A stretch of 24,076 nucleotides of DNA, taken from IMG/VR virus record IMGVR_UViG_3300025120_000542, positions 1-24,076 of that record; one strand, given 5' to 3'. Under the pieces are notes generated by a model. It made no database searches. It was not told the DNA's origin and saw nothing but the letters and a program-made list of their open reading frames with translations. This document shows positions 1,125 to 24,076 of this stretch, piece by piece (positions within the stretch are counted from its first letter, which is position 1; every line of letters starts with the position of its first letter). The stretch is from a virus. The translations under genes were made by a program, and so were the position numbers.

Positions 1125-4100
1125 TTATAGTCCTATGTTTTTCCTTACAGGAAGGTTAGCTTCACGCTTGAGTATTGGGGTAAACCTAACAGCCGCTTCA
1201 ATTTCATTTTGAATCTCATCTATCATGTCTCTCTTTAGGTCACTAGAAAGATCCGACCTTTCAACTATCTGTCTTTGTTTTCTTAGCTCACTCAGCCTTC
1301 GGCCTGTGTAGTTGAGCGTATCTTTCATTGCAAGCAGATGCCCTCTAGCCCTGAATACAGCCTCGTACTCATCCAGCCTATCTTCTTCAACCAGACGCTT
1401 TAAATCACCAGAAAGCTCCTTTACCTCTGCCCTTAAATCGTAGAAGTCCTGAACATCTCCGCTAGAGAATTTATTAAGGAAGAATCTCTTCATTACTGGA
1501 AGCTGCGTAAAATCTTTGGTTGGCGCTGCCGTGCCTTTATCTCCTAGAACTGCTGGGTTCTTAAAAATCATCTCATCGACAACGTCGATAATATAACCAC
1601 CGATTGTCCCTACATAACCCCGCATAACATGGTCTATCTTCATTGGGCTTGTATTACCAATGATAGGTAGGTCAGATTTTCCAATTAGCTTGGCAAGCTC
1701 TGTATTGGAGGCTCTTGCTATAAGACCTTGGCTGCTGTTTTGAGAAAGATAAAACGGAACAATATCTCTGCCTGTATAGAAATTTTTATTCCAAACAGCT
1801 TCTATTAAGGGGGCAACTATCTGCGCTCCTAGCGGGTTAAGAGCAAGCGTTTCTCCTACCCCTCTGGTAAGAGATTCACCCAGCTCTCTTTGACTTGTTT
1901 GCCCTGTCTTGCCAAATACCTCTGCCACACCGTAGGTATCTAGAATTCTTTCTGGGATTGTCTTAAACAGCAGGCCTACCTCAAAAGGAACCGGAATCCT
2001 TAAAGGAACATCAACACCAAAAGACTTTGGCAAAGGGAGTATCCAGTTAAGGTCTCTCTGTTCATCGGTTGCTTTCTTGTACTCCTCATCGTCAGAGAAC
2101 ATTAACCAGTACGCCATAGTGGTGGCTGTAATGATGCTGCCCCTCATAAGAGCCGTTGCGGTCGCTTGCCTTCTGGATTTTTCTTTATCTGCCGAGTTGT
2201 GCCCCATGAAGCCACGGTACAATACATCCAGACCTTGAAACCTAGCGTTCAGGAAAGGTATAGCTGTAGTTAAAAGCCTTACCCCCGGATTCCTTCCTCT
2301 TCTTGAGAAGTTAATAACCTCTAGTGCTTGGAAAGCAGCCTCTGCTTCGTTACCTGTTCTGGCAAGGACATCGTAGTAAACCGCTTTTCTTGTGGCAGCA
2401 TCTGAAGCTGTTGTTGCGTTTCCAGACCAATTCCACAGCTTTTTAAATATCCCTATGGAGTCCCCTGTACCATCGACATCAACGCCTCTTTCTTTAGAGT
2501 AATCGCCAAAAGCTCTTACTATATCCTCTGGGTCGTTAGAAAAATCATAGCCACCAACAACTCCAAACCTTTCAAGCTCTTCAAAGTTAAGGTTGATGTT
2601 CTTTACAGTGTCAATGACAGGGATAAAGTTAGCACCGGAAGTAACATACGCAGAGAGGGTGTCTCTCATCATGTTAGCAAACATGAATCCGGGGTCTCTA
2701 GTAATCATCTCCCTTAATAATTTGGACGGCCCGCCGACTAAAGATGTCCCCATGAGGGGTGCGCTAATAGGCTGCATTGACTCGTAAATAAGAGGATCTT
2801 TTATTGAATAGTGTTGGTCTACCCCATCAACCTTGAAACTAACAACATAGTTCTGTGTTTTGTTTCTTCTTTGTTCTGGCGTGGCTTTTTCCGCAAGGCC
2901 AATCTGTATCATGTCCCTGACAATTCTTTGCTGGGCTACGTTCTTCATGCCAGAGTCTATTGCCATAGACAAGTTTCTTGTTATCGCGTCAAGCATAGGG
3001 ACGTTAACAGCTTTCTCGCTGCCCTTTAGCTTCGTCAGCTTCACTGCTGTTGTCATGTTGCGCTTAAACATCTGGGGGACATTCTTACCCAGATCAACGG
3101 TCTCGCCTTCGACTGCGTCAGCTTGCCGATAAAACGGTATGTAATCTGACATCTCTATCCATTTTTGAGCCAGAGCATCGTCCACAATACCCGTAGCCTT
3201 CATGAACTCTACTGTTTTACTGTTGTAGGCTTGCCAAGTGTCATACCACTCCTCAATGATAGGAACGCCGTCTTCATTTTTAAACTTGGCTATCTCCGCC
3301 TCAAGAACAGCTAGGTCGCCAGCCTCTGTCGGAACAGGCAGTCCTTGTTTTCTTAGCCTGTCGGCTCTTTTTGCTATGGCATAAGCCTGTGCAAGCTCTT
3401 CTAAAGAAACATTGTATTCATTGGAGTAAAGAGGAGCCATTACATCCACCAGCCCCTTGTACGTTTTCCTAACTCCTGACTTGTTAATGTAAACAAAATC
3501 TACGACTCTGGTCATGCCGTCTTGGTAAACAACGACACCGCTCTTTAGGGCAGAAGCAACTATACCCATAGATCTATCCGCAAACAGGGCCGCAGCTATG
3601 GAGCTTGTGTCGGCAAGATTTTCCTTGAAAGCTGGATCTCTATTGAGCACTTCTAGCCTTGCGTAATTTTGCATTGTCTCTTGTTTAAACTTGGTCAGAT
3701 ACTGAGACAGCTTGCCCTTAAAGGTTTGTGCTGCTTCTAGGTAGGTTTCGCCGGGGGTTGCATCTGTTTCTGGCTTGGCAGACACCCTGCTGACAACCGA
3801 CTGGGCTTCAGGGGCAAGCTCCGGGGAGTTTCTTCTTGAAAACTTGTCAGTGAGGGTGGGGCTTGGGGTTATCCCCTCTTCTGGGTTCTGGGCGATGTAT
3901 TGCGCTTCTGGGTCTGCTGTAAAGCTAAACCTTGGAACGTGATCTGCTGGTGTTTCTACGGCATCTTGCTCGTTCTTGTCTACTACCTTCTGTACAGCAC
4001 CGGCATCTCTAGTAACTTTCTGGATGTCAGAGTCGCCACCAACCAAAGAGCCGTCAGCCCTTTCCCGTAAAACAGACATCTCACCAACAGATTCTATTTT

Positions 4101-7100
4101 AAGGGGCTGACCTCTTTCATCTACTCTGGGGTCTGGTCTTTCCTTTGTGTCTGGCTCAAATCCAAGTCGATCTGCTGTTCTTGTGTAGAGTTCCCAGAAC
4201 GGTTTATAAAGCGTATCGTCGATCCTCCCGTATATATCGGATGATCCGGGGACGCCTCCTTCACTCCCAATGATTCTAATATTTTTCTTGTAGTCGCTCG
4301 ATTCAAAATAGTCTCCTTCTTGGTAAAAAGCTACTGTATCAACATCCAAAGATGTGGGTAGTTTGGTGCTAAGCTCTTCAATAAACTCAGGAAGCATTTC
4401 TACTTCATTGTAAACAACCGAATCATCATACACTCGACCATCCATAAAGGAAAGAACGTCTGGCGAAACAAGGGTAAAGTTTAATCCGTAAGGACTTTTC
4501 TCAGGGTTAACGCTTCTGCCGATAACTTCAAGCTCTTCTAACTCAAAATTGCTGCCATCTTTTTTCTGTAGAGCAACTCCTACTTGAGAGCCTGAACCAA
4601 AAGAAGGTCGAGCCATAATAGCCGCATCCTGCAAAAGAGCATCACCCAATATGTTGGCAGCGAAAGAAGCCTGCCTTGGGGTTCCGTCAAGCAGCTTTAC
4701 TGTGATGCTAGGCTCTATTCCTTCATAGCTACCAAAGGTCTCTGTAACTTCATGAGAGATACCCAAGTCTCTAAGGAAAGGTATTTGCCCTGACTCGTCA
4801 GTAATAACGTCTATAGCTTCTCTGTTGAAATCAACGATCTCCGAAAGCTCTACTTCTGCGGGGAAGCCGTAGCCTCTAGCGTTGCCGGGATTTGCAGAGA
4901 ACACAGCTTTTGGCGCTCTAGCTCTGGCAACAGAAAGAAGGTCTTCATTTTGAAGAATGTTAGAAAACGAAACACTCTTTGTTGTTATTTTGTTTGAAGC
5001 CTTAATCGGATCAGCCAATGCTGGAGTTGCTGCATTATTTTTATCAAAGACGCCGGAATTAACCATGTCCTGTATTTGTTTTATTTCTGGCTGAGAAACA
5101 TTTTTTGCTGAGTCCCACGTTCCGGGCTTTCCTTTTCTGCCGCTTTCTTTCAAGGGGCTAAGATTGCTCTTTGCATAAAACCACAAAGCGGCCTGCATTT
5201 GGTTAGGGGTTACACGAAACTCTTCTGCCAGCTTAGACGTTAAAAACTGTGCATACCTGTAGCTGTTATCGGTTGGTATTTTTGCATCGTCAACGACTCG
5301 ATTACTGTCTGGATCTATTTTCTTTCTATTGAAGCCAAAGACTCTTGCCATATGAACATCTTGAACGCTAAATGGATTAAATTTATTAGCCGCCCTGTCC
5401 TGTATCATCTGCATGTAAGTTGATGTTTTCAACCCAGCCTCGGCAAAACCTTCGTTATAAAGTCTGGTTATTCTGTTTATCTGGTCGCCGGTTATTTTTA
5501 GCCCTTGCCCTCCGGGGCGTTTTCCGTTTCTTAATTCTTTTATAAACTTATCTTTGTCCTTAACAGGGTCTATTTTTCTAGCAACAGCCATGATGTGCAA
5601 AGTGTCAGCAAGGTTTTGCTCCGCAGAGTTTTGCTGAGATGTTATGCCAAAAACAACAGAAGCTTCTGGCAGATTCTTTTCTCCAACTATTTCTCTAATG
5701 CCGACGCCAAATTGGTCGTACCATCTATTGCTATTTCCAGCCAAACCCACCCTAGCCATCATTCTCAGGGTGGTAAAGGGCGTTGGTTTTACGTTGGAGT
5801 CAAGCTTGTTTTTTATTTTTCTCCCGCTTTTTGTTTTACTAGTTCTTGGCGAAGGAGAGCCTGTAACCTTAGCAAGCTGGCTAGATGTAGGAGCTTCGGA
5901 TGCTTTAAACAAATCCAACAGTCCTTGCTCAACCTCACCTATCGGAAGTATTGGTGATAACTCTTCAGGAGTAGGAACCCTTGTTTTTATTGGCAAACCC
6001 TGTCTTGAAAATTTATCCTCCAAAGAAGCTTCTGGTATGAAGTCAGGCATTCTCTGCCCTTCTGAGGTTCCTCTCGCAACTATCTCTGCTACTTCTTGGG
6101 GTAACCTGCCGCCTCTTTCTCTGGCACCAACGGCTCCGCTTTCTATGTCAGCAATAAGCCCTTCAAAGGTGGTATACCCAGATCCCGAAAGGAATCCTTT
6201 AAGTCTTGCAAACAGCTCAGGTATTCGGGAAAGAAGATTCTTTGGCTTCCCAGATATTATCTTAGGGTTTCTTCTAGCAGCACGAACCAGCTCCGCTACC
6301 GCTTCTTCGATCTTTCCTTCGTCAGTTAGATCCCGGTAATTTTCACTGGCAACCCGAAGGAATGTTTGATCAGGGACTCGATCTGACTTTACATTTTCTG
6401 TTGCCTTAGAAAGAATTGACCACTCTTTATCTGTAAAGAGATTAGCTTCCCTCATGGCGTGGACTTGTTCGTGATGAAGCAACTCTATTGCTCTATCAAC
6501 TTGCTGCTCTACAGGTAGAGTCGAGTCAATCTTGTCTAGACCTAAGAATATTTCCCCGGTTGGAGTTGAGTAGAATGCTTGAACATCTGAGGGGGGAGCA
6601 TCATCTAAAATCAGTGAAGCAGACCCTCCAAAAGACTCACCGCCTACCTCTCCCGCAGCTCTCGGCCTAACACCAAAGACAAGCTCACCTTCAGCGTTCC
6701 GCAAGACATTTTGCAGGGTTCTGGAGATCGTAGCCCTGATGTCGCCAAGGCCCGTCTTATCCATCCTCTCATCTAACGCTTTCTGTATGACCTCAAGCTT
6801 CTCGTCGCCTAAAGTTTTCTGCGGCAACAGCAGTGGAGGCTGATCATCCGGAACAACCTCTTCCTGCACGGCTTCTATGGCAGGCGCTTTCGTTGGCAGA
6901 AAGTTAACAAGGGGAGTCGGATCAGCAAACTGAGGTAAAGACCTGATCTTCTGATAAAGGATCTTCATCTCTGCGTTTGAGAGGTCATTTATTCTTTTAC
7001 TTCCAGAAGCTTTAACGCCAGTAAACGCTTCTATCAGAACCCTAAACTCAGGAGAGCCAACCTCTGTGACAATATTCTTGCTGTCGAGTAACCTGTTCAG

Positions 7101-9392
7101 CTCAGGTATTCTAATATTCTTATTTGCAAATACTGACTCGTCAACACTTGTAATGCTTCTATCTTCGTTTCTTTTTTTGGCGTAAAGAGAAGCGTCAAAC
7201 ATATTGACAAAAGGCTTAACCTCAAACTCATCACTCTTTGATTTCTTTTTCTTTATCCCGGTGATATGCCCTGCTATCACTTCTCCTGACGAGGTAACAA
7301 CAACGGGCTTGCCATCTGGGCCTTTCTTAGCTGCGTAGGTTTCTGTTTCTATCTCGCCTGTTCTTATGTTGCCAAACTTCGCCCCAAGAACATCCTTCAC
7401 TTCTTCTACCGTAAAAGAATTTGTTGGGGTCTTGCCTTTAGCCATTCTTTTTTTGTTAATTCTCTGACTCATTGTCAGCTTAGACGGGGCTGTATTGTTT
7501 ATCTCTTCGTTTGATAGTTGCTCGTTAAAGCCCTCAATAACAGTTGTTCCTCCTGCTTGGTTCAACTCAGCAGAGGTGTAAGTGTTTTGGTCTGTATTGA
7601 GAGTCTTCCAGCCGTAAGCAAACATGGTGCTTCTTTCTTCTGGAGAAAGATCTAGCCCAGAGTTATCAATAGCTGTATTTATTCTTTGTGCAACCTCTGC
7701 GTCAGAAAGCTGCTCATTAAGGTTTCCCGCAAGGCTTATCGCCTCTTCTTTTTGGTTGCCTGCAAAAGGTTTTCCGTAGCGAATGCCGCCAGCCACCACT
7801 TCAAAAATTCGCGTACCATCAGGGGCTGTTTTTTCTTCAACATCAAAAGAAGCTTCGGGGATGTAATCTTTTTCTTTTGTGGAGTACTCTATTCCTTCAA
7901 ACGTGAAGACTTCATCCTTATTTTTTTTAGCATTAGCAAATGCAGCTTCAAACCTTGCAGCTTTTTCTCTTGCTTTTTTACCAGCTAATAAGAATTTTCC
8001 TCCAGCCAACTGCCTTATACGCCTAGCGTACTGAAGCATTGGATCTTTGCTTCTTCTGGATGGTATGTTTGTGGGTGCTGGCAGGACAACCTGTGAGGAA
8101 ATCCCCTCAACAGGAACTCCGTCCCTAGAAAGAACTACATTGGTAAAGGTTCCGTCATCGTTAACTCTCCTAACGTAACGCTCCTCTCTGCCTTTCTTGA
8201 AAGAAATTTTTTCTTCCGCCTGAAACTCATTACCTTCCCTGTCTACGACATTCAGGTATGCCCCAGAGCTACCCGCCGCCCCGGCAAGCTCTCCACGCCT
8301 TGGTGCTTCTATTTCGCCAAGATCCACTTCAGAAGCAGTAGATGGCGCTAGTCCCTGTCTTGCAGCCAGCTCTTGTTCGTAGACAACTTGAGCAGAAGAA
8401 ACCTCTTGAGCTAATTTTTCTCTTTCTATTTCCAAGATCTCTTTAGCGTTTTTTTGAGCTTCGATCTGTGCATCAGCACCCATCTGCCTTCTTCGTCCGG
8501 CTGCACCATCCAAGGCTAGATCTGCAAGCGTACCAACCGCACCACCTATGGTGAAATCGTCAAGCATAGAGTCTGATCGGGCAAGGTTTTCGTTATAGAT
8601 GCCGCGCTCTGTAGCGTCTTGAAGTATGCCTGCAACTGCTTCTTGGACACCCTCAACAACGCCGGTTCCCAAGGCTTCTTTAATTCTTGCTGCAATGGTC
8701 GCTTTTACTTCTGGGTTGGCATTTTTAGAAATCCTAGACAAGATTCGGGTTGGGGCAAAAAGCTCACTAGCACCTATTACTGAGCCAAAAACACCAATGG
8801 CAAGGTCTTCGTCACCCTCAGAGATCTCTATCCCTTGGTCTCTTGCTGCTTGTATTCTCTGGGCTTGATCTCCAGCTCCAGAACCAACAGCCAGAGCGCC
8901 TGCTCCCCCCAACTGACCAAGACTAGCAAGCTTTCCTGTGGCTCCAGCCACCTTGAGCACCCCTGCCGGGGTAAAGAAGCTGGCAAAGGAGCCAAGCCCC
9001 TCGCCAAACTTTGTCATCCATGTGTCTCTGTAAGCCTCATCAGCTCCCATTGACTCTTGCAGAGCAGCCCTACCATCTCTTGCAAGGCTGACCATTGCGT
9101 TATCTTCACCACTGTCTATAAGATCTTCTAACCCTATAGTGTTGGTGGCAGCATCAGCTAGTTCAGCAAGACCCTCGCCTGCTGTGAGGAAAGATCCTGC
9201 GAATCCACGGGGGATCGCCTTGGCTGTCTCAAAGACTTGACCGCCAAAGGTTCTTTCATCGGCGAAGGGATCTTCCCCTTGCTCTGCATCGTACTCCTCA
9301 AAGAGAGCCTTTATCTGCATGGGGTTTGGGGGGGACGCTCCCTCGACCCGCAGAATACGACCCGCAGGATCTCCCACTTCATAGATAGGCAT
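1125..9392 (-). CDS. giant polyvalent internal-virion/ejection-type protein (2755 aa)
   Basis: I place the start at the ATG 9392-9390, which overlaps the stop of the upstream gene as TAATG; the frame is open a further 36 codons upstream but that part lies over the neighbour's coding end. The N-terminal ~330 residues contain Gly/Ala-rich hydrophobic helices typical of ejected phage proteins. Residues 974-978 read HEQVH, an HExxH metallopeptidase-type motif. A module from about 1200 to 1400 carries GNSNRWYDQFG and DVHMARVFG. The C-terminal part (about 1870-2500) resembles the large polyvalent protein domain LPD38, with RDPGFMFANMMRDT near 2231 and FLNARFQGLDVLYRG near 2385. KFSR linkers occur at 1127 and 1850. 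By analogy with T7 gp16 and other polyvalent phage proteins it is probably packaged and ejected into the host. Domain names are from recall, not a search. Confidence 0.8.
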   Translation of the reverse strand: MPIYEVGDPAGRILRVEGASPPNPMQIKALFEEYDAEQGEDPFADERTFGGQVFETAKAIPRGFAGSFLTAGEGLAELADAATNTIGLEDLIDSGEDNAMVSLARDGRAALQESMGADEAYRDTWMTKFGEGLGSFASFFTPAGVLKVAGATGKLASLGQLGGAGALAVGSGAGDQAQRIQAARDQGIEISEGDEDLAIGVFGSVIGASELFAPTRILSRISKNANPEVKATIAARIKEALGTGVVEGVQEAVAGILQDATERGIYNENLARSDSMLDDFTIGGAVGTLADLALDGAAGRRRQMGADAQIEAQKNAKEILEIEREKLAQEVSSAQVVYEQELAARQGLAPSTASEVDLGEIEAPRRGELAGAAGSSGAYLNVVDREGNEFQAEEKISFKKGREERYVRRVNDDGTFTNVVLSRDGVPVEGISSQVVLPAPTNIPSRRSKDPMLQYARRIRQLAGGKFLLAGKKAREKAARFEAAFANAKKNKDEVFTFEGIEYSTKEKDYIPEASFDVEEKTAPDGTRIFEVVAGGIRYGKPFAGNQKEEAISLAGNLNEQLSDAEVAQRINTAIDNSGLDLSPEERSTMFAYGWKTLNTDQNTYTSAELNQAGGTTVIEGFNEQLSNEEINNTAPSKLTMSQRINKKRMAKGKTPTNSFTVEEVKDVLGAKFGNIRTGEIETETYAAKKGPDGKPVVVTSSGEVIAGHITGIKKKKSKSDEFEVKPFVNMFDASLYAKKRNEDRSITSVDESVFANKNIRIPELNRLLDSKNIVTEVGSPEFRVLIEAFTGVKASGSKRINDLSNAEMKILYQKIRSLPQFADPTPLVNFLPTKAPAIEAVQEEVVPDDQPPLLLPQKTLGDEKLEVIQKALDERMDKTGLGDIRATISRTLQNVLRNAEGELVFGVRPRAAGEVGGESFGGSASLILDDAPPSDVQAFYSTPTGEIFLGLDKIDSTLPVEQQVDRAIELLHHEQVHAMREANLFTDKEWSILSKATENVKSDRVPDQTFLRVASENYRDLTDEGKIEEAVAELVRAARRNPKIISGKPKNLLSRIPELFARLKGFLSGSGYTTFEGLIADIESGAVGARERGGRLPQEVAEIVARGTSEGQRMPDFIPEASLEDKFSRQGLPIKTRVPTPEELSPILPIGEVEQGLLDLFKASEAPTSSQLAKVTGSPSPRTSKTKSGRKIKNKLDSNVKPTPFTTLRMMARVGLAGNSNRWYDQFGVGIREIVGEKNLPEASVVFGITSQQNSAEQNLADTLHIMAVARKIDPVKDKDKFIKELRNGKRPGGQGLKITGDQINRITRLYNEGFAEAGLKTSTYMQMIQDRAANKFNPFSVQDVHMARVFGFNRKKIDPDSNRVVDDAKIPTDNSYRYAQFLTSKLAEEFRVTPNQMQAALWFYAKSNLSPLKESGRKGKPGTWDSAKNVSQPEIKQIQDMVNSGVFDKNNAATPALADPIKASNKITTKSVSFSNILQNEDLLSVARARAPKAVFSANPGNARGYGFPAEVELSEIVDFNREAIDVITDESGQIPFLRDLGISHEVTETFGSYEGIEPSITVKLLDGTPRQASFAANILGDALLQDAAIMARPSFGSGSQVGVALQKKDGSNFELEELEVIGRSVNPEKSPYGLNFTLVSPDVLSFMDGRVYDDSVVYNEVEMLPEFIEELSTKLPTSLDVDTVAFYQEGDYFESSDYKKNIRIIGSEGGVPGSSDIYGRIDDTLYKPFWELYTRTADRLGFEPDTKERPDPRVDERGQPLKIESVGEMSVLRERADGSLVGGDSDIQKVTRDAGAVQKVVDKNEQDAVETPADHVPRFSFTADPEAQYIAQNPEEGITPSPTLTDKFSRRNSPELAPEAQSVVSRVSAKPETDATPGETYLEAAQTFKGKLSQYLTKFKQETMQNYARLEVLNRDPAFKENLADTSSIAAALFADRSMGIVASALKSGVVVYQDGMTRVVDFVYINKSGVRKTYKGLVDVMAPLYSNEYNVSLEELAQAYAIAKRADRLRKQGLPVPTEAGDLAVLEAEIAKFKNEDGVPIIEEWYDTWQAYNSKTVEFMKATGIVDDALAQKWIEMSDYIPFYRQADAVEGETVDLGKNVPQMFKRNMTTAVKLTKLKGSEKAVNVPMLDAITRNLSMAIDSGMKNVAQQRIVRDMIQIGLAEKATPEQRRNKTQNYVVSFKVDGVDQHYSIKDPLIYESMQPISAPLMGTSLVGGPSKLLREMITRDPGFMFANMMRDTLSAYVTSGANFIPVIDTVKNINLNFEELERFGVVGGYDFSNDPEDIVRAFGDYSKERGVDVDGTGDSIGIFKKLWNWSGNATTASDAATRKAVYYDVLARTGNEAEAAFQALEVINFSRRGRNPGVRLLTTAIPFLNARFQGLDVLYRGFMGHNSADKEKSRRQATATALMRGSIITATTMAYWLMFSDDEEYKKATDEQRDLNWILPLPKSFGVDVPLRIPVPFEVGLLFKTIPERILDTYGVAEVFGKTGQTSQRELGESLTRGVGETLALNPLGAQIVAPLIEAVWNKNFYTGRDIVPFYLSQNSSQGLIARASNTELAKLIGKSDLPIIGNTSPMKIDHVMRGYVGTIGGYIIDVVDEMIFKNPAVLGDKGTAAPTKDFTQLPVMKRFFLNKFSSGDVQDFYDLRAEVKELSGDLKRLVEEDRLDEYEAVFRARGHLLAMKDTLNYTGRRLSELRKQRQIVERSDLSSDLKRDMIDEIQNEIEAAVRFTPILKREANLPVRKNIGL

Positions 9393-12088
9393 TATCCAGC
9401 TTTCCCTTGGATGGTGTACCCAGCAGTGCTGTCTGAGGGTGCCCCCATTCCCGAACCAAATTGATTGATAGCATCTCCAGCCATTCTTCTCAGATACCAC
9501 GCCCTTCTTTTCGTATCACTCATAGAGCTTAGCTCTATAGCTAAGGCAGGATTATTAGCCATTAAGGTTTTAATCTCTGCATCTACGATATGATCTGGGA
9601 ATTGGGCTGCAAACTCTCGGGAATTGGCTAGTGCTGTTGCCGACTCTGCGCTGGCATCGTAGTACCTTGCCATTGCCTCATTTTTAAGCCTGTCACTTCC
9701 TGCTTCTTGAACCTTTAAAAGCAGCTCTGATCGTTGGAGGACAGCGTTGTACAGTTTTTCATTACGGTTAATGGCATTCTCAGCGCCTTTTATTGCCAAG
9801 TTCTGAAGAGCAATATCTCGCTCGTTCTGCGCTTCAAGAGTTTTAATTCCAAGAGTGGATTGTTGCTGCCTATCTGCTAGTTCTATTTGACGCTGAAGCG
9901 TAGTAAGCCCTTTCTCTTCTTCTCTAGCTTCTCTTCTGGAAAGCATAGCCGCCTCGCCTGCCTTAGAAATACCTCCAGCCATGTCGCCCCCAGCTATCCC
10001 AGCGCCAAGCTGGATTAGGGCGTTAGAGCCTGCATCTCTTCTTGCCTGTTCAGCAGCTAGTTTAGACCTAGCTTCTTCCTTCTCTAACAAACCCTTGAAA
10101 TCTACTTTATGACCCAAGTAGTCTAACTTTTTCCCCAGCTCACCCTTTAACTCAGAAAGATCAACCGTTCCAAATGCAGGCATTGCGGGGTCAACGAAAC
10201 CACTCCCTTGACCTCCCGCACCGCCACCAGTCAAAGCAGCTACTCTAGCCTGCTCTGCTGCCTCGGCATCCGCAGCATCATCTATTTCAAATTGCGCGAA
10301 GATATTTTTAAACTCAGGCTCAGAGATTTCTATACTTTTGTATTGAGCGTACTCGTCAAGAGTGCCCGGAGCAAACAGCTCTCGATCTCTGGCCTGTTCT
10401 GCTGCAAGAACATTTTCATTAAATGTTCTGGTTATATCTGGGCCTTCAAGGTAGCCTCTATCACCTAAAGCTTCTCTTTTGGCAATAATGTCTCTTTGTC
10501 TAGCTTCAGACTCTGCTCCGGGCAGAGCATACGCCCCAGCACCCGGAATTACTCCCATGGCACTAGGCGTTTCCCTCAAATCAGCGATACCTGCCGCCCT
10601 CTCTCTTTCTATAGCCTTATTCATAGCCTCTTCGTATGTCGCTCTCATTTCTGGCGTTGCTTGACTTAGTAGCTCCTCGGATATACCAAGCTGAGACATG
10701 ATCCTTTTAATATCTGGAATTCTCCTCCCATCATACATCCGATAAGGCATCATCCCGCCATCGGCAGCCATTTCCAGCGTTTCTCCAGCGTAGATCATGT
10801 CTGGATTGGAGATTTTGTTAGCTAAAGCAAGAGCCTCTACGGTTGTTCCGTGAGCTTGGGCAATACCCGAAAGGGTGTCCCCTCTTTGGATCTCATACCT
10901 AGCTGAACCCAGCTCTTCCAAAACATTCAAAGCGTCTAGATTTTCGGCCTCTGCTTCTTGTTTAGCAGCCACTCTTGGGTTTACTTTAACTGAGCCTGCT
11001 TCAGGCGCGGCTATCAGCTTAGCCAATTCAGGATCAAAGCCCTCCAAGAAGCCAGCCTCCCCGAGTTTGGGCTTGGCAGATCTAGATACATCATCCTGCA
11101 AGGCCGTTAAAGATATGCTTGGCTTTGCAGAAATCTGAGCTAACCTAGCCGCATCAATGCCTAAATTTTCTTCTTCGGACAAGCCGCTTGTAAGAGTTTT
11201 TTGAGGCTCGGAATATTCTGCGGCAATCTCCTCTAAAGGGGGAACATAAAACCCATGAGACTCCAAGGCTTGCGTTAATTCCCCAATATCTGGAGGACGA
11301 CGAAGATTTAAAGCTGCGGCTACAAGCTTTGGAACTTGCTCTTGGGAAAGACCCTTCTGGACTGCTCTATCTATAACCCCTTGCACCCCCCCTCCGACAC
11401 CCGTATCTTCTCCAAGCGCACCCAAGATCGTTTCTTTTTCGGGATCACCTTCCGCATACATGATTTGGTTGCCCATCCTGTTCAGCACCGGACTCCCCAT
11501 ATCATCTCTTCTGCCGCGAGGATAAACGCCTCCTTCATTAATATAAGAGCCTCCGCCCATATTTGTTATGTTGTACTCCAGCGGGAAAGGAACCGTCTTT
11601 CCCTGATCCATCCGATAAGGCATCATGCCGCCACCGGCAGCCATCATCCCTTGCTGCATCATAGGATCTTGCATCATAGGATCTTGCATTGGCATCTGCA
11701 TCATTGGGTCTTGAGGCATCTGCTGACCCATCGCAAGATCTTGAGGCATCTGCCCCATCATGGGATCTTGCATCTGCCCCATCATAGGATCTTGCATTGG
11801 CGGCTGCATCATGGGGTCTTGGCCCATCATTGGATCTGGTGCGCCCATAGCCATACTCATTAACGGGTCAGGGTTAGGGTTCATGGCTGCTATGCCGCCC
11901 GAAATTATCTGTTCTGTAACGGTGTTTTGGGGAACCTGCTCATCAAACTTGCTCCTCATCTTCTCCCGTCTTTGAATCTCAGAGACAACTAGATACTGGG
12001 GGACATTCCCTGTCGGGGCTTGCGCCTCCTCGACAAGCACCTGATCAGGCAATCCTTTGATGAGATCTTCTTGTTCAAGTATATTCAT
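9392..12088 (-). CDS. Met-rich LysM-domain virion protein (898 aa)
   Basis: Residues 398 to about 440 (YEIQRGDTLSGIAQAHGTT, then the typical NP..I.AGE.L ending) form a clear LysM domain, a peptidoglycan-binding module. Before it, residues ~73-150 are a low-complexity tract with seven DPMM units separated by Gln, Met and Pro. GGMMPYRM occurs twice, just after that tract and again just after the LysM. The C-terminal ~200 residues are Gly/Ala-rich, then long and helical with many Glu, Arg and Gln. The protein sits between the 354-aa protein and the giant polyvalent protein and overlaps the latter (TAATG), so an internal-virion or tail role with contact to peptidoglycan during DNA entry is likely. 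GAGG lies 7 bases before the ATG. The LysM call is firm; the virion role is inferred from context. Confidence 0.8.
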   Translation of the reverse strand: MNILEQEDLIKGLPDQVLVEEAQAPTGNVPQYLVVSEIQRREKMRSKFDEQVPQNTVTEQIISGGIAAMNPNPDPLMSMAMGAPDPMMGQDPMMQPPMQDPMMGQMQDPMMGQMPQDLAMGQQMPQDPMMQMPMQDPMMQDPMMQQGMMAAGGGMMPYRMDQGKTVPFPLEYNITNMGGGSYINEGGVYPRGRRDDMGSPVLNRMGNQIMYAEGDPEKETILGALGEDTGVGGGVQGVIDRAVQKGLSQEQVPKLVAAALNLRRPPDIGELTQALESHGFYVPPLEEIAAEYSEPQKTLTSGLSEEENLGIDAARLAQISAKPSISLTALQDDVSRSAKPKLGEAGFLEGFDPELAKLIAAPEAGSVKVNPRVAAKQEAEAENLDALNVLEELGSARYEIQRGDTLSGIAQAHGTTVEALALANKISNPDMIYAGETLEMAADGGMMPYRMYDGRRIPDIKRIMSQLGISEELLSQATPEMRATYEEAMNKAIERERAAGIADLRETPSAMGVIPGAGAYALPGAESEARQRDIIAKREALGDRGYLEGPDITRTFNENVLAAEQARDRELFAPGTLDEYAQYKSIEISEPEFKNIFAQFEIDDAADAEAAEQARVAALTGGGAGGQGSGFVDPAMPAFGTVDLSELKGELGKKLDYLGHKVDFKGLLEKEEARSKLAAEQARRDAGSNALIQLGAGIAGGDMAGGISKAGEAAMLSRREAREEEKGLTTLQRQIELADRQQQSTLGIKTLEAQNERDIALQNLAIKGAENAINRNEKLYNAVLQRSELLLKVQEAGSDRLKNEAMARYYDASAESATALANSREFAAQFPDHIVDAEIKTLMANNPALAIELSSMSDTKRRAWYLRRMAGDAINQFGSGMGAPSDSTAGYTIQGKAG
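11642..11860 (-). repeat. imperfect DNA repeat encoding DPMM units
   Basis: A motif like CATCATAGGATCTTG recurs many times with variation on the plus strand here and encodes Met-Met-Gln-Asp-Pro in the minus-strand LysM gene. Spacing stays a multiple of three, so copies could be gained or lost without a frameshift. Confidence 0.7.
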
Positions 12089-17942: not shown

Positions 17943-19862
17943 TTAGGCTCGGCGCGAATTCAGTTGATCTAGCATCCCGTTGAGGTTTGGCTGTGCTGCT
18001 CCAACACGACCACCCCGCGCAAACCCCGTGTTGTATCTAGCCAACCACTCTTCGTTAGAAAGAGCTGGAGGCAAAGAGGAGCGTCGCGGCGGAGGTATTG
18101 AAGCCATTCTAGGCGGCGGAGCCATTCCAGTAAGCCCCGGAAGGCCTTGGAGACCTTGCTGTCCCATAAGCCCTTGGAGTCCTTGGAGTCCTTGCTCTCC
18201 TATGAGCCCCTGAAGACCTTGCTCTCCTATGAGCCCCTGAAGACCTTGGAGTCCTTGTTCTCCTTGTTGTCCTACTTGTCCTACTTGTCCTACTTGTCCT
18301 GCTTGTCCTTGGAGTCCTTGGAGTCCTTGGAGTCCTTGGAGTCCTTGAAGTCCTCGGGCTCCACGCAAACGAGGATCATTCTGAATCGCTGATTCCATCC
18401 CCTGATACGTTAGATAATTGCTAAGATCGGGCGCAGCGTAGTCGGGTAAATCCGCTGCGGTTAAATAACCGCTAAGGTCTGGCCCTTCGGCACCTTCTAA
18501 TTGTCTTAATCTTGCTTGCAGTTGGCTAGGGTCAAAAGGGTTAAACTGAGGAATTTCCCTTCCTTCCAACTCTGCTAATCTGCCTTGCAGCCTCGATGGA
18601 TCAAATGTTCCTTTGCCTTCCAAAGCAGACAATCTTTGTTGCAACCCACTCGGATCAAAAGGATCGGCAGCGCCCCCCATAGAGCCAAGGCCTTCTAGCG
18701 AAGCCAATCTTTTCTCTATTTCTGAGGCATCAAATGTTTGCGTCTGCCTGTTCTGCAATGCGTCGATCTGTTGCTGAAGCCCCGAAGGATCGAACTGTTT
18801 AAATGTCCCCTTTCCTGCTGCCTCTGCAAATTCCGAAGAAGTGAATGTAGAAGGAAGCTGCTCACCAGCAGCGGCTTGATCCTCCGCAGCTTCAATTTCC
18901 ATCTGCCTATAACCATCCATTGTAAGGCCAGACATAGGGCCGTAAGTTGGATGGTTGTAAGTGTAGCGACCGTCCGCATCTGGTGTTGGAGAGCCGGATG
19001 ACGCAGACGTAGCAGGATTCTTGAACTGCCGCCATTCCTCGTTAGTTACAAAACCATCACTGTTAAGATCGCCCCCTTGCGTGACTGCGCTGGCATTGTG
19101 TGCCACCGCTTCTTCGTATGTCTTCCCCTGCCTTTCCATTAGGTTGGCGATTTGACTTTCATAAGCCGCAGACCCTGCGCTAGGCTCTTGCTGAGCCCCT
19201 CCCGGTGGGGTGTATGTCTCTCCGGGGAACATCTTCTTGAACCAAGCTTCGTCTGACGTCCCCTCCAATTCTGCATTTCTTCCCTGCGCCGCCTCTCTTG
19301 CAGCATCTCCTTGCTCTTGAGTTGTACCCACTCGCTCATGGTAATCAAACCAATTTTCATCTGCGCGTTTGTCCGTCGGATTAGCAGGCACTTCTGGAGA
19401 GGGATAACCTCCGCCGAAGATAGGATCTTCGGCTCTACCGCCTTTGCCGCCACCACTTTGCTGGTAAAAAGGAGAAGGAGCGTAGGGAGAAGGATAACCT
19501 CCGCCGCCGCCACCCCTGAACCTGTCAAGCATATTCAGCGTTGTGTCACGCCGGTAGGGGTTCATCAGGTTGTTTGGCCCAGACAAGGACTGAATCAAGT
19601 TCTGGCTCCTCATGGGAGCGCCGTAGCCCTGATCCCTAAAGGGTATGTTGGTTGGAGTTACCTGCCCCATGCCGCCACCAAAAATTGGCCCCATGTTCTG
19701 GTTGCCGTAACCTCCGCCGCCATCTTGGGGCATCATCGGCGCATATCGGTCAAACCTTTGCTGGTAAACAGGAGAAGGAGCGTATGGGTTTCTATAGCCG
19801 CGAGGCATTTGTTGCTGCCTTGGAGGGAAGCGTAAGCGTCTGCCAAAATCCATTACTGTCAT
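17943..19862 (-). CDS. collagen-like, EF-hand-bearing probable fibre protein (639 aa)
   Basis: Four parts are visible. Residues 1-150 are Pro/Tyr/Gly/Gln-rich low complexity, with YAPSPVYQQ and YAPSPFYQQ repeats. Residues 265-276 (D265, N267, D269, E276; sequence DLNSDGFVTNEE) form a canonical EF-hand calcium loop. From about 356 to 460 come five units beginning FDPS or FDAS and continuing as LQxRLxxLEG, which should form short coiled coils. Residues 501-581 are 27 uninterrupted Gly-X-Y triplets, mostly GLQ, GQV and GEQ, a collagen-like triple-helix segment. The end has FARGGRV and LNGMLDQL. This suggests a trimeric extended fibre or appendage. GGAG lies six bases before ATG 19862, and the upstream lysozyme stop sits within that site. 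Confidence 0.75.
   Translation of the reverse strand: MTVMDFGRRLRFPPRQQQMPRGYRNPYAPSPVYQQRFDRYAPMMPQDGGGGYGNQNMGPIFGGGMGQVTPTNIPFRDQGYGAPMRSQNLIQSLSGPNNLMNPYRRDTTLNMLDRFRGGGGGGYPSPYAPSPFYQQSGGGKGGRAEDPIFGGGYPSPEVPANPTDKRADENWFDYHERVGTTQEQGDAAREAAQGRNAELEGTSDEAWFKKMFPGETYTPPGGAQQEPSAGSAAYESQIANLMERQGKTYEEAVAHNASAVTQGGDLNSDGFVTNEEWRQFKNPATSASSGSPTPDADGRYTYNHPTYGPMSGLTMDGYRQMEIEAAEDQAAAGEQLPSTFTSSEFAEAAGKGTFKQFDPSGLQQQIDALQNRQTQTFDASEIEKRLASLEGLGSMGGAADPFDPSGLQQRLSALEGKGTFDPSRLQGRLAELEGREIPQFNPFDPSQLQARLRQLEGAEGPDLSGYLTAADLPDYAAPDLSNYLTYQGMESAIQNDPRLRGARGLQGLQGLQGLQGLQGQAGQVGQVGQVGQQGEQGLQGLQGLIGEQGLQGLIGEQGLQGLQGLMGQQGLQGLPGLTGMAPPPRMASIPPPRRSSLPPALSNEEWLARYNTGFARGGRVGAAQPNLNGMLDQLNSRRA
18191..18352 (-). 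repeat. in-frame tandem DNA repeats in the collagen-like segment
   Basis: Inside the Gly-X-Y coding region a 27-bp unit is perfectly duplicated (18191-18217 and 18218-18244), TCCTACTTG occurs three times in tandem (18270-18296), and CTTGGAGTC occurs four times perfectly plus one variant (18308-18352). All periods are multiples of nine, so slippage changes fibre length by whole triplets. Confidence 0.9.
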
Positions 19863-19871
19863 ATTTTTCTC

Positions 19872-20354
19872 CTATGCGTCAGCTAAAGCTAACATTCTTA
19901 CTTTTAGTCTTTCGGCGCGTTCAGGCGTTTGACCAGCCCATCTTGAGTCGAGCATTTCGAGTGCAGCCCTTTGCCACTGATAGTCTTCGATAGCCACTTT
20001 AAGATTCTTGAATTTACTTAATCCCCCCTGCCCAAGCTGAAAACACATGTTAACTAAAATGTGTTGAGCTTCTTGCGGGAGTTCTTCCCAGTTGCCATAA
20101 ATCTTCTCACATCCATCAATCGCAATCTGGACATCCCCTTGAAAGAGTTCGTAGCACCTATCCTCTGAGATACGCTGGTCATCAGTAACATCAGCACCAA
20201 TTCCGTAAACTTGCAGGTCATTTTCTACGTCCGTGCCAAGAACCTTGTGGCCTATCCCCACCGTTTTGTGGTGTTCACTACACAAATAGGCATGGAGTAC
20301 TCTACCTTCGTCGGCAGAAATTTCTTCATAAACTTGCTTCACATCGACTGTCAT
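19872..20354 (-). CDS. T4-type lysozyme endolysin, GH24 family (160 aa)
   Basis: Residues 15-36 align with the active site of T4 lysozyme: E16 in ADEG, then C25 and T31 followed by VGIGH. This is the E-8-D/C-5-T triad spacing of phage muramidases, with Cys in place of the usual Asp. The length is normal for the family. Conserved later segments include LVNMCFQLG and a Trp near the end (SRWAGQTPERAERL). It cleaves the MurNAc-GlcNAc bond of peptidoglycan. No signal peptide is visible, so it needs a holin to reach the wall. Its ATG overlaps the stop of the EF-hand membrane protein (ATGA). It lies at the end of the lysis region, just before the fibre gene. Confidence 0.88.
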   Translation of the reverse strand: MTVDVKQVYEEISADEGRVLHAYLCSEHHKTVGIGHKVLGTDVENDLQVYGIGADVTDDQRISEDRCYELFQGDVQIAIDGCEKIYGNWEELPQEAQHILVNMCFQLGQGGLSKFKNLKVAIEDYQWQRAALEMLDSRWAGQTPERAERLKVRMLALADA

Positions 20355-20680
20355 TTATTTTTCCCTGCAAAAACTTGGCTTCCAAAAAATACGCTGACCA
20401 CGCCCCCTGTTGCGAGAAAATACATATTTGCCATGTCTGAGAGCAAGACAGCGGCATCATTCATCCCCAAGAACGAGCAAATAGCTACCCCAGATGGGTA
20501 TAAAAGCATACCGCCTAGAGCAAACCAAACCATACTGCGTTGAGCATCAGCTTTTTCGTGCGCTGCTTCTAGCTGCTGAAGTCGCGCAGTTGTTTCAAGC
20601 TCCTCATCTGAAACTATACCATCACCGTCTGCATCGTATTTCGCGTATTCACTCCCCGGTTCTAGTTGTTTAGGGGTCAT
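20351..20680 (-). CDS. EF-hand protein with two membrane segments, candidate holin (109 aa)
   Basis: The N-terminus has one canonical EF-hand loop: D16, D18, D20, G21 and E27 in YDADGDGIVSDEEL. A helix with many Glu and Gln follows (28-48). Then come two hydrophobic segments, about 50-72 and 84-104, suitable for membrane spans, and a basic tail AGKNK. Size, two spans, charged tail and position directly upstream of and overlapping the lysozyme fit a holin. The EF-hand suggests calcium binding on the N-terminal side. I recall similar EF-hand membrane proteins from marine phages, but not any with a shown function. Both ends overlap neighbours by ATGA, so it should be made together with the lipase and lysozyme. 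Confidence 0.75.
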   Translation of the reverse strand: MTPKQLEPGSEYAKYDADGDGIVSDEELETTARLQQLEAAHEKADAQRSMVWFALGGMLLYPSGVAICSFLGMNDAAVLLSDMANMYFLATGGVVSVFFGSQVFAGKNK

Positions 20681-21246
20681 GCTACTCCCGGTAATTTCTT
20701 CATCTTAACGTAGTTGGCCATATAATGATCTTTGATTGCGCTTCCTCGTTTACCAAACTCGACCAGCTTGTTGTGCCTCCTACACACCCCTAAAACTGGC
20801 ACTATATCCTTTCCATGCCGGTACTGGGTCACGGGTACGGTATCCAGTATCTTCAATCGTCCACACCGAGGAGCGCCGAAGGTTACAATTTGCTTGGGCG
20901 GGATCTCGTCCCTTACCATTAACGCGCCAACAATAAGGGCTACCGCGCCCCCTAAGCTATGCCCCGTTAACTCTATGCTCTTATGATCAATGTCCTGCTC
21001 TAAGCACGTTGAAGTCACTTTATTAACAAGCCGTCTGCTGGCCTTGAGAAATCCTGCGGGGCACCAGCCTAGCTCTCGCGTCCACAGAGGGAGGATGCGT
21101 ATGTCTCGTATTGCATCCTTGGGTTCATCAGTACCCCTGAAAGCAAACACATTACCCTTTACCAGCACCTCAATATTAGCTTCCTCAAAAGTGCTTTCTT
21201 GATAACATTCTCCGCAAATACGGGATAATTTCTGATGATTAGTCAT
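20677..21246 (-). CDS. class 3 lipase-like alpha/beta hydrolase (189 aa)
   Basis: All hallmarks of the Lipase_3 family are present: the FRGTD stretch (36-40) before the catalytic core, the nucleophile elbow GHSLGG with S97, TFGAPRCG (122-129), an acidic residue D147 in HGKDIVP and H174 in KDHY. At 189 residues it is a minimal core. No signal peptide is seen, so it would act in the cytoplasm until the membrane opens, or be packaged. Expected substrates are glycerides or phospholipids. I choose ATG 21246, which overlaps the upstream lipoprotein stop and has GAGGG before it; an upstream GTG at 21279 in the same frame is less likely. Being flanked by lysis genes suggests a role in host envelope disruption. 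Confidence 0.85.
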   Translation of the reverse strand: MTNHQKLSRICGECYQESTFEEANIEVLVKGNVFAFRGTDEPKDAIRDIRILPLWTRELGWCPAGFLKASRRLVNKVTSTCLEQDIDHKSIELTGHSLGGAVALIVGALMVRDEIPPKQIVTFGAPRCGRLKILDTVPVTQYRHGKDIVPVLGVCRRHNKLVEFGKRGSAIKDHYMANYVKMKKLPGVA

Positions 21247-21433
21247 CGTTGAGAGCCCTCTCCTCTGGATCACGCTCACAATCTACATGGTCAGAGCTGC
21301 GTTTTATCTTAAAGGCACCATTTAAGAAGGGCACTGTGTTAGGTACTTCAAAGCTGTACTCCCTCGTCCCACACACTTGTAGAGATGAGCACCCAGAAAT
21401 AAATAAAAGGCTAATCAAAAGTAAGCGTCCCAT
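21239..21433 (-). CDS. small lipoprotein, candidate o-spanin (64 aa)
   Basis: The first 15 residues (MGRLLLISLLFISGC) form a lipoprotein signal: basic start, hydrophobic core and lipobox ISGC with Cys15 as the lipidation site. The mature part would be about 50 residues and mostly polar, with two more Cys and a very acidic end. A small outer-membrane lipoprotein inside a lysis region is what an o-spanin looks like, with the 164-aa protein upstream as a possible inner-membrane partner. It is not Pro-rich as many o-spanins are, so other lipoprotein roles remain possible. AAGGA five bases before the ATG (21433) supports the start. Confidence 0.7.
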   Translation of the reverse strand: MGRLLLISLLFISGCSSLQVCGTREYSFEVPNTVPFLNGAFKIKRSSDHVDCERDPEERALNDD

Positions 21434-21447
21434 AAAAATCCTTACAA

Positions 21448-21624
21448 TTAGAGGTATTTAGCTAAGAATACGGACGCCAGAATAAAAGGGTAAACTCCCC
21501 AAATAGACATTTCCATCCTATCCATTCTTTGAGACCCCCGCTCTAGCCGCTCCTCAATAGCCTTGAATCGGAGCGCGCACTCCTTCTCATGCGTTTCAAT
21601 CTTGGCGAGTGCATCCTTAGCCAT
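21448..21624 (-). CDS. 58-aa coiled-coil plus C-terminal membrane anchor protein
   Basis: From ATG 21624 to TAA 21448 the frame gives a 58-residue protein. Residues 1-39 are charged and helical with heptad-like spacing (AKIETHEKECALRFKAIEER and following). Residues 41-55 (IWGVYPFILASVFLA) form one short membrane segment near the end. This layout is seen in phage XhlA-like and holin-accessory proteins. Its ATG overlaps the stop of the 53-aa gene (TAATG), strong evidence that it is translated. It sits among lysis genes, so a role as holin partner or antiholin is likely but not proven. Confidence 0.65.
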   Translation of the reverse strand: MAKDALAKIETHEKECALRFKAIEERLERGSQRMDRMEMSIWGVYPFILASVFLAKYL

Positions 21625-21785
21625 TATTCCTTCGCCTTACCAACATTGATTGCCAGCAAATCGACTATCTTGTACGCTTTTGCAAGCATTGAGTCATCTT
21701 TCGGTGTAGGAGTTACCGCAGCAATTGCACTACATGACGCAATTAAAGCCGTGAGAATATTTACAATTTCTATGAGCTGATCCAT
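21624..21785 (-). CDS. 53-aa single-span holin-like protein
   Basis: ATG 21785 to TAA 21624 encodes 53 residues: a hydrophobic helix from about 4 to 24 (LIEIVNILTALIASCSAIAA), a TPTPKDD turn, and a second amphipathic helix AKAYKIVDLLAINVGKAK. Small proteins of this pattern, with a hydrophobic start, a TPTPKDD-type turn and a DLLA.N.GKAK end, recur in phage lysis regions. A pinholin or holin role is plausible. AGGA eight bases before the ATG marks a good ribosome-binding site, and its stop overlaps the next start. Confidence 0.65.
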   Translation of the reverse strand: MDQLIEIVNILTALIASCSAIAAVTPTPKDDSMLAKAYKIVDLLAINVGKAKE

Positions 21786-21797
21786 TTTGATGTCCTG

Positions 21798-22292
21798 TTA
21801 TTCAGTGTCGTTCAGTGGATTTTCAAGTATCTTCATAATCTTTTCTTCTAAGTCTTTTCTTAGCTCTCTAGTCTCTGCATCCATCTCTTTGAAGCGGCTA
21901 TTCATATCACGCTCCATAGCATACACATCATTTCTAATCTCTCTTTGTGTGTCTGCTGATGTCTTTTCAGTTGTCCTTGCTAAGTCCATTACCGCACCAG
22001 TCTCTTCTCTTACTATATTAATATCCCCTTTGGCTGTATTAATATCCTCTCTGGCCGCGTTAATATCTTCTCTCAAGTCAATTTTAATGATCTCTGTAAG
22101 CTCCGTTAGCCTTACAAGCTCTGTTTGTATTGCGTCTGGCTTTAGATTTGCCAATGTATCTTCTGCTTCAAGCAAACGGCTATAAAGTTCAAAACCTCCC
22201 CACAGGCCACCGATCAATGTGCCTAACAACGGAATTATAAACAGCATTTTACTGCCGCTCATTTTTATTCCCTCATATTCTACTTCTGCCAT
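21798..22292 (-). CDS. N-anchored coiled-coil protein, candidate i-spanin (164 aa)
   Basis: A short polar N-terminus is followed by one membrane segment at about 15-37 (MLFIIPLLGTLIGGLWGGF). The rest of the chain, about 38-164, is almost all charged helix with EDINAAREDINTAKGDINIV repeats, a predicted long coiled coil. An N-terminal anchor with a periplasmic coiled coil is the plan of phage i-spanins, which fuse inner and outer membranes together with an outer-membrane lipoprotein. Similar anchored coiled coils also occur as holin accessories, so the call is tentative. AAGGAAGGAA before the ATG is a strong ribosome-binding site. It begins 17 bases after the preceding gene ends. Confidence 0.65.
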   Translation of the reverse strand: MAEVEYEGIKMSGSKMLFIIPLLGTLIGGLWGGFELYSRLLEAEDTLANLKPDAIQTELVRLTELTEIIKIDLREDINAAREDINTAKGDINIVREETGAVMDLARTTEKTSADTQREIRNDVYAMERDMNSRFKEMDAETRELRKDLEEKIMKILENPLNDTE

Positions 22293-22309: not shown

Positions 22310-24076
22310 TTACTCCTGATTATATTGACTGTGTATCATTGCCTGTAGTTTTCCTTGAGTTCTACCTGCCATCCTGTAAAACCCTGCCACGTTATCAACA
22401 GTCTTCTGCCCTTTATACACTTGGGAGCTATCATACCAACTTTGCTTATCTGCCAGTTGTGCTTGTGATGTGTACTCGCTAAACCCCGCAGAATACCCTA
22501 TATACGAGACAGCGATAGTTTGGTCGCCATAATCGTTAGTGTTCTCGTTGTCTTGCTGTAATTTGTTTAACTCTGCTTGTAAGTTTGATGCTATAACGGT
22601 TGAACTAACAGAATCTGCTAAACTTTCTACTGCACTTGATTGTCGTTGCTCTTGGAACGTAGGTGCTTCAACTTCAAACTTAGCAAAGTCGGGCACTGTG
22701 TTACTTAAAAATTGTCCTATTGATTGTCCTGCCCCCAAAGCATCATCAAACGAACTCTCAAAGTTTTGATCGGCTATTGTAAAATTAGAGCCATCATCAA
22801 ATGTTAATTCTTGTTGTTCTTCTTGCTGCTGCTCTTGTTGTTCAGCTACTTCAAAGGCAGTAACTGCTGGGCCGGAATCAACTATCTCTGCTGCTTGTAT
22901 CTGTACCTGTCCTGTAGATTGCTCTTGCTGCTCTATGACTAACTCGTTACCTGTAGACTGTACTATTTGTTCTTGCTCAGAGCCTGTAGCCGCAGCACTA
23001 CTACCACTTGAGTAGGAGCTTGAATCAGAACTATCACCTGTTGAACTACCTGACCCATCATCTAATTGTTCTTGCAGGACTTCAGCAACTGTTACTTGTT
23101 CTTCTTGCGTACCTCCAAAATCTATTGCCGCCACCACTGCTTGTGTACTGCTAGAACTTGAATCCTGTAATACTGCTTGTTGTTCTTGTTGAGCTATTAC
23201 TGTAAATGTTTGTTCTGCGCTAGTTGCCGGGCTTGTACCAGAAGCCACAAATCTTGTACTTTTATTTTCTTCTACTTTTTCCTTCTTAAAAAAGGTCTCT
23301 TCATCCTCTTCGTTAATGAGTTCTTCTAACTCATCCTCGTCTATTAGATCTTTAAAAGCCTTGTCGTTTTCTAAGTAAATCTCTTCTTCACGTTCAAAGT
23401 CTACTAGCTCTTCTGCTTGTATTTCGCTCTCTTCAACAGGCTCCCATGCTTCTTCAACAAATATCTCGACACCTATTGTTTCTTCTAGTATGTAAATATC
23501 TTGATGTGTAAGGTTTTGAGCCAGCAGTTCTACTTCCTCTACAACCTCTACCTCATAAAATTCTTCTTCGTAGGGTTCTACTAAAGGAGTCTCTGCTACA
23601 AATACTTCCTCAACAAACTCTATGCTCTCCTCTACAGGTTCAAATTCTTCTATTTCGTATGCAAACAAATCTTCCTCAGCTTGCACAGGAGCATAGAAGG
23701 CTTCTTCTTGCGCCCAGTACTCTTCTTCTTGCGCTAACATTACTGCATCTTCCAACATTTGCTGCTCTTCTTGAGCTAACATCTCCTCTTCTACAGCCCG
23801 CAAGACTTCTTGTTCTTGAGCATAAGTATCTATACCCTCATCAATCTCTGCCCAATATTCTTCCTGTACTAATATTTCCGCATCTTCTAATGTTTGCTGT
23901 CCTTGCTCTGCCCCATAAACTTGTTCTTGAGTATAAGCACCCGTATTCGCATCTACTTCAGCACCGTACTCTTCTTGTGTTGTATCCACTCCACAACCGT
24001 TCTCAGAACAAGGATCATTAGGGTCTAAGTATTCATCCTCAAACCCATAATCTGTATATTCCTCATTCCCATATTC
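22310..24076 (-). CDS. acidic, Gln/Ser-rich virion-type protein, 5' end outside window
   Basis: The frame is open from the right edge to TAA 22310, giving at least 588 residues. A GTG at 23989 could be taken as a start, but reading continues upstream without a stop (EYGNEEYTDYGFEDEY and on), and that stretch has the same acidic composition as the rest, so the true start probably lies beyond 24076. The first ~270 residues are very rich in Glu with Tyr, Ala and Gln. Then come Gln/Ser/Thr-rich low-complexity blocks (SGSSTGDSSDSSSYSSG). The last ~70 residues form a distinct, likely folded end: VSYIGYSAGFSEY, QVYKGQKTVDN and SQYNQE. I recall this Tyr/Gly ending from marine phage structural proteins. 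A tail, fibre or capsid-accessory role is inferred. Confidence 0.7.
   Translation of the reverse strand, partial: EYGNEEYTDYGFEDEYLDPNDPCSENGCGVDTTQEEYGAEVDANTGAYTQEQVYGAEQGQQTLEDAEILVQEEYWAEIDEGIDTYAQEQEVLRAVEEEMLAQEEQQMLEDAVMLAQEEEYWAQEEAFYAPVQAEEDLFAYEIEEFEPVEESIEFVEEVFVAETPLVEPYEEEFYEVEVVEEVELLAQNLTHQDIYILEETIGVEIFVEEAWEPVEESEIQAEELVDFEREEEIYLENDKAFKDLIDEDELEELINEEDEETFFKKEKVEENKSTRFVASGTSPATSAEQTFTVIAQQEQQAVLQDSSSSSTQAVVAAIDFGGTQEEQVTVAEVLQEQLDDGSGSSTGDSSDSSSYSSGSSAAATGSEQEQIVQSTGNELVIEQQEQSTGQVQIQAAEIVDSGPAVTAFEVAEQQEQQQEEQQELTFDDGSNFTIADQNFESSFDDALGAGQSIGQFLSNTVPDFAKFEVEAPTFQEQRQSSAVESLADSVSSTVIASNLQAELNKLQQDNENTNDYGDQTIAVSYIGYSAGFSEYTSQAQLADKQSWYDSSQVYKGQKTVDNVAGFYRMAGRTQGKLQAMIHSQYNQE

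Follow-up and report, generated by a model that had tools for sequence, protein, structure and literature searches.

Around 13% of the tailed phages that infect Gram-negative hosts lack a recognisable spanin, and the question of what takes its place at the outer membrane is open (PMC12819732). A lipolytic enzyme in a lysis cassette has its precedent in LysB (PMC6116114), and the nearest published idea to the system described here is the GDSL lipase from the lysis region of Pseudomonas phage psageB1, which acts on cells in a fusion with an endolysin (PMC12173070). The lipase studied here resembles LysB of mycobacteriophages in being a serine lipolytic alpha/beta hydrolase of a lysis cassette with a presumed third-step action at the outer membrane, but it is of the class 3 family rather than cutinase-like, is encoded behind a lipoprotein gene and would act on a presumed Gram-negative host without mycolates. 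Like the psageB1 enzyme, which helps to kill from outside as an endolysin fusion, it lies beside candidate holin and endolysin genes, but the GDSL lipase is of an unrelated family, carries a carbohydrate-binding domain and has no reported EF-hand partner. A class 3 lipase gene that overlaps a lipoprotein gene, with a small membrane protein gene preceding, also occurs in Shewanella phage vB_Sb_QDWS and Burkholderia phage BgManors32, which differ in their distant lipases, unrelated lipoproteins, lack of an EF-hand protein and GH19-type endolysins a few genes away. With lipases in lysis cassettes already precedented, two things are new here: the lipase is combined in a conserved way with a membrane protein of EF-hand type, and a 3TM holin (GTA_holin_3TM, PF11351) is excluded.

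The window analysed is the whole of IMG/VR virus record IMGVR_UViG_3300025120_000542 (24,076 bases), probably a fragment, from a marine tailed phage. Seven minus-strand ORFs run end to end from 22292 to 19872, overlapping or a few bases apart, and ORF calls, Pfam matches and hydropathy agree with the sequence-only reading, which had described a dense region with a lipase, an EF-hand membrane protein and a lysozyme; the anchored coiled coil, two small membrane proteins and lipoprotein that it listed are likewise recognisable by hydropathy and lipobox. In order of transcription, the block opens with a 164-aa protein (21798 to 22292) whose N-terminal hydrophobic segment and following coiled coil give it an i-spanin-like shape, a 53-aa small membrane protein (21624 to 21785) with a single N-terminal hydrophobic segment at residues 7-25 and a match to phrog_9685, a family of unknown function (E=1e-13), and a 58-aa tail-anchored protein (21448 to 21624) with a charged helix and a C-terminal hydrophobic segment, an XhlA-like shape without family match. 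These are followed by a 64-aa lipoprotein (21239 to 21433), the class 3 lipase (20677 to 21246), a 109-aa EF-hand protein (20351 to 20680) and a T4-type lysozyme (19872 to 20354). Compared to close relatives, dN/dS is low throughout, which argues that the seven are not chance ORFs: 0.00-0.19 in the first three genes (164, 53 and 58 aa), 0.13-0.25 in the lipoprotein gene, 0.06-0.07 in the lipase gene (strong purifying selection) and 0.07-0.10 in the lysozyme gene. For the EF-hand gene, two relatives give 0.05-0.10, and saturated dS leaves the ratio undefined for three more.

We read the block as a lysis module that attacks successive envelope layers by means of a holin-like EF-hand protein, an endolysin and the lipase, with a probability of roughly 0.55. 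That it is a host-lysis module at all appears highly probable, and the chances seem evenly balanced that the outer membrane is the main site of lipase action.

The lysozyme, presumed to be the endolysin of the block, matches PF00959 (E=5e-10, 40.2 bits against a Pfam cut-off of 22.3 bits) and the endolysin family phrog_7 (E=1.3e-14), shows the E-8aa-C-5aa-T arrangement and has no signal peptide. A transglycosylase-like stretch in another gene of the window (9392 to 12088; phrog_4602, E=5.2e-12) likely belongs to a virion wall enzyme separate from this lysozyme. Downstream of the block lie genes for a tail protein with collagen repeats and for a virion protein of the stabilisation type, with relatives of the latter in DSL-LC04, Pelagibacter phages HTVC023P and HTVC027P, roseophages CRP-901 and CRP-902 and, among others, Planktothrix and Synechococcus phages. 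Genes annotated as holin and M15 peptidase stand immediately upstream of the stabilisation protein in DSL-LC04, suggesting that the same genome place is the lysis region there too; the EF-hand model had no match in the four stabilisation-protein relatives searched (DSL-LC04, HTVC027P, CRP-902 and HTVC023P). The collagen triple-helix tail protein (17943 to 19862) itself has an EF-hand-like loop, DLNSDGFVTNEE (PF13202, E=0.0049).

The lipase matches PF01764 (E=5.6e-17, 62.4 bits against a curated Pfam cut-off of 22 bits) and phrog_21992, and searches of Pfam and PHROGs returned neither a cutinase nor a LysB family for it. Its start is most likely ATG 21246 and not GTG 21279, giving a protein of 189 aa without signal peptide, because homologue alignments begin at M-x-[SN]HQ, the stretch GAGGAGAGG precedes this ATG and the ATG overlaps the lipoprotein stop; GTG 21279 has no obvious ribosome site. 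Numbered from ATG 21246, the predicted catalytic triad is Ser97, Asp147 and His174 in the motifs GHSLGG, GKDIVP and DHYMANY, with Asp147 and His174 assigned via the family motif. All three residues are invariant across 16 aligned relatives, and GHSLGG, which fits the GxSxG pattern, recurs in 145 of 147 further lipase matches that come largely from the already counted contigs. The structure model is only moderate (pLDDT 64), and a fold search with it retrieved fungal lipases at TM < 0.5, which adds little beyond lipase family membership. Matches by sequence and by fold are mostly to fungal lipases, and when the species-genome collection was scanned with the lipase, no relative turned up.

The lipoprotein encoded directly before the lipase has an o-spanin-type lipobox (ISGC, Ser at +2) with equivalents in relatives, an IPF..DHVDC motif, and invariant Cys21 and Cys52. 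No gene of the window gives a good match to an accepted spanin family: neither the lipoprotein nor the coiled coil clearly matches the Rz/Rz1 families (phrog_739, phrog_812), with Rz-type matches at E=0.56 and, for the 164-aa protein in PHROGs, at E=0.061. Might the coiled coil, or some other gene, and the lipoprotein nonetheless be an ordinary spanin pair with the lipase as a minor passenger? The shapes fit, an N-anchored coiled coil and a lipoprotein of outer-membrane type, true Rz1 takes the place of the lipoprotein in three relatives (L498, L503, L077), and lipoprotein genes without lipase are found beside lysozyme genes. However, the two genes lie two genes apart rather than adjacent or nested as in i-/o-spanin layouts, the lipoprotein also occurs at places with no visible coiled-coil homologue in the vicinity (homologues of the 164-aa protein occur in a minority of loci), the Rz-family match is only the E=0.56 one, and the lipase is kept under strong purifying selection, so that we regard a plain spanin pair as quite unlikely compared to the preferred reading of a layered lysis module with an active lipase.

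Across relatives, the lipase gene directly follows or overlaps lipoprotein genes of several unrelated forms, namely the small DHVDC lipoprotein, Rz1 in L498, L503 and L077 and yet another in L492, besides the unrelated ones of QDWS and BgManors32. In L492, neither an EF-hand gene nor a lysozyme gene adjoins the lipase. Conversely, of 79 loci with the lipoprotein, 7 lack the lipase, truncated loci among them; as an obligate partner of the lipase it is weakened as a candidate by loci that have the lipoprotein alone or the lipase alone. In L498, L503 and L077, the lipase, EF-hand and lysozyme genes follow Rz/Rz1-type genes identified by PHROGs (Rz1 only in L077), and L496, L497 and L500 have a like layout with putative genes of this type. 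A lipase directly behind a true Rz/Rz1 pair is not simply a spanin substitute, and these cassettes weaken that plain version of its role. The i-spanin, o-spanin and lipase genes of L498, L503 and L077 overlap serially.

Downstream of the lipase, the EF-hand protein combines a canonical 12-residue calcium loop, DADGDGIVSDEE (residues 16-27; 20600 to 20635, minus strand), with two hydrophobic segments, and its Pfam EF-hand scores are below cut-off. The loop is canonical in all 109 homologues checked, a figure favoured by two of the three underlying scans, which used patterns on or near the loop. In a set of 19 homologues with identities as low as 32%, the sole invariant residues are D16 and E27, at loop positions 1 and 12, together with Q47 and M50. 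AlphaFold predicts one helix from residue 25 to 70, running on into TM1, and a second from 74 to 107 (pLDDT 77.5), and both ends would be cytoplasmic by the charge rule. The protein has the shape of a holin, being small, spanning the membrane twice and lying beside the endolysin gene, and it is the only holin-like candidate found in lipase-bearing contigs. Its score for holin family PF07332 lies below cut-off (19.6 against 28.4 bits), and we therefore call it holin-like only.

This two-span family is widespread in marine phages judging from the scans: relatives are encoded in 557 of 600 pattern matches, among the matches listed, and 12 matches from species genomes are mostly on phage-looking MAG contigs. 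An ORF-level match exists at 97 loci, and the DNA fetched around them includes a T4-type lysozyme at 47, a 3TM holin at 38 and neither at 36; many EF-hand phages carry a 3TM holin in addition. Neighbourhoods include EF-lysozyme (L245, L246, L251), EF-Rz-Rz1-lysozyme (L241) and EF-Rz-M15 peptidase (Limnohabitans phage DC31). In Roseobacter phage CRP-207 (L227), the gene directly preceding the EF-hand gene (3292 to 3873) is annotated as a "putative lysozyme" but seems to encode a counterpart of the 164-aa N-anchored coiled coil, a probable misannotation. Literature searches restricted to open-licence papers found no EF-hand holin. The cytoplasmic calcium loop continues as one helix into TM1, which could let all copies open at once; it is conceivable, though we consider it doubtful, that the protein is a calcium-gated holin triggered by the first leak of seawater calcium, releasing the lipase to rupture the outer membrane by chemistry rather than by spanin-type fusion.

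A lipase scan of viral contigs yielded 67 loci with 73-100% identity, which together with four contigs from other scans (L073, L077, L157, L200) make 71 distinct lipase contigs, three of which end before the lipoprotein. In each of the 71, the next gene after the lipase is the EF-hand gene, and the order lipoprotein-lipase-EF-hand-lysozyme is seen in 67 of the 68 with enough flank, one of these 67 (L036) ending before the lysozyme. Absence or scattering of the lipase and EF-hand genes among close relatives, named beforehand as the outcome that would speak against a joint system, was looked for and not found. The idea of all seven genes as one conserved unit did not hold, and only the last four form the core: upstream, some relatives have the coiled-coil, 53-aa and 58-aa genes and others the 58-aa gene with genes for a 148-183-aa tail-anchored protein and a 71-aa protein, and in many relatives other membrane-protein genes stand in for those of the window. 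Of the expanded envelope-disruption system proposed from the sequence, a conserved and contiguous lysis-type module containing the lipase and EF-hand genes stands, but the EF-hand protein is not an addition to a complete holin-endolysin-spanin set, being the only holin-like candidate found in lipase-bearing contigs, and the window has no good spanin match.

The core is kept across diverged structural backgrounds. Over 33 loci, lipase identity correlates with that of the lysozyme at r=0.60 and with that of the stabilisation protein at r=0.18, suggesting that the block evolves as one piece, separately from the virion genes. This weighs against a place in the virion, with use at entry, for either the lipase or the EF-hand protein, as could be suspected from the tail and stabilisation-protein genes that flank the block and from EF-hand two-span homologues between the baseplate and tape-measure genes of myophages HTVC008M and Melnitz (L228, L229); with EF-hand homologues often beside lysozyme or holin genes, we consider a virion role extremely unlikely. 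Joint inheritance with the lysozyme and the near-invariant position between lipoprotein and EF-hand genes, together with the slot exchange with a holin described below, also make it very unlikely that the lipase is a host-takeover or lipid-recycling enzyme merely located among lysis genes, even though the lipase gene of P-SSM2 has metabolic genes around it, with tRNA ligase and primase genes close by, and a Cylindrospermopsis virus lipase adjoins dCTP deaminase.

Three contigs (L153, L165, L192) have the 3TM holin PF11351 (E=5e-20 in L153) exactly in the slot that the lipoprotein and lipase genes fill in L027, and a fourth (L156) has a phrog_2524 protein there; in the lysozyme tree, all four are nested inside an otherwise lipase-bearing clade. 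This three-span, non-enzymatic holin was never seen alongside this lipase: PF11351 was absent from 31 of 31 lipase-bearing contigs searched (4 to 58 kb, window excluded), weak evidence for any single fragment, and present in 9 of 19 EF-bearing lipase-less contigs of at least 22 kb, one of the nine below the curated cut-off. A Fisher test of 0/12 against 9/19 gives p=0.005 but takes no account of kinship, which means that few of the events are independent. A search run without positive control detected no relative of the lipase among the EF-bearing lipase-less contigs of at least 22 kb, and PF01764 was absent from 22 lipase-less contigs, with control L060 giving a match. The exchange and the mutual absence would suit a lipase that replaces the 3TM holin, disrupting the inner membrane from the cytoplasmic side, alone or together with the EF-hand protein, and setting lysis timing. 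But a cytoplasmic lipase active once made would provide no timing, a two-span holin-like gene still adjoins the lipase, QDWS and BgManors32 retain a separate small membrane protein beside theirs, and the independent swaps are few. We rate holin replacement as unlikely and continue to favour a lipase that acts after a holin-like protein.

For the favoured lysis module, the steps beyond gene content and conservation are those that we infer. Late in infection, the lipoprotein would be exported while the signal-less lipase and lysozyme wait in the cytoplasm, until the holin-like EF-hand protein possibly releases both enzymes into the periplasm. The lysozyme would then cut peptidoglycan and the lipase hydrolyse phospholipid of the envelope. 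The main effect of the lipase would be to weaken the outer membrane, at which the lipoprotein may also act, or in some relatives the Rz1 o-spanin whose gene immediately precedes that of the lipase. The lipase would thus provide a spanin- or LysB-type third step that is at least partly enzymatic. Against this we count the coexistence of lipase and Rz/Rz1 in L498, L503 and L077, where the need for a lipase at the outer membrane is not obvious, the L492 layout, the lipase-less lipoprotein loci, the sub-cut-off holin score, the 3TM holin in many EF-hand phages, and the mostly fungal lipase matches with a moderate model. Dozens of related ocean viruses keep lipase, EF-hand protein and lysozyme together, suggesting that the outer membrane of marine bacteria may be broken partly enzymatically. 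A conserved lipase under purifying selection in a lysis module is a concrete candidate outer-membrane breaker for spanin-less phages, and the widespread EF-hand two-span family makes calcium control of phage lysis testable.

Elsewhere in the window, a 2,791-aa ORF (1125 to 9500) with an HExxH-type motif (HEQVH) overlaps the next gene by ~110 bases and possibly encodes an ejected virion protein. A 136-aa plus-strand ORF (235 to 645; phrog_7141) runs opposite to the other long genes, and a Glu/Gln-rich low-complexity ORF (22310 to 24076), open at the window edge and without a convincing family match, has homologues only in some near relatives.
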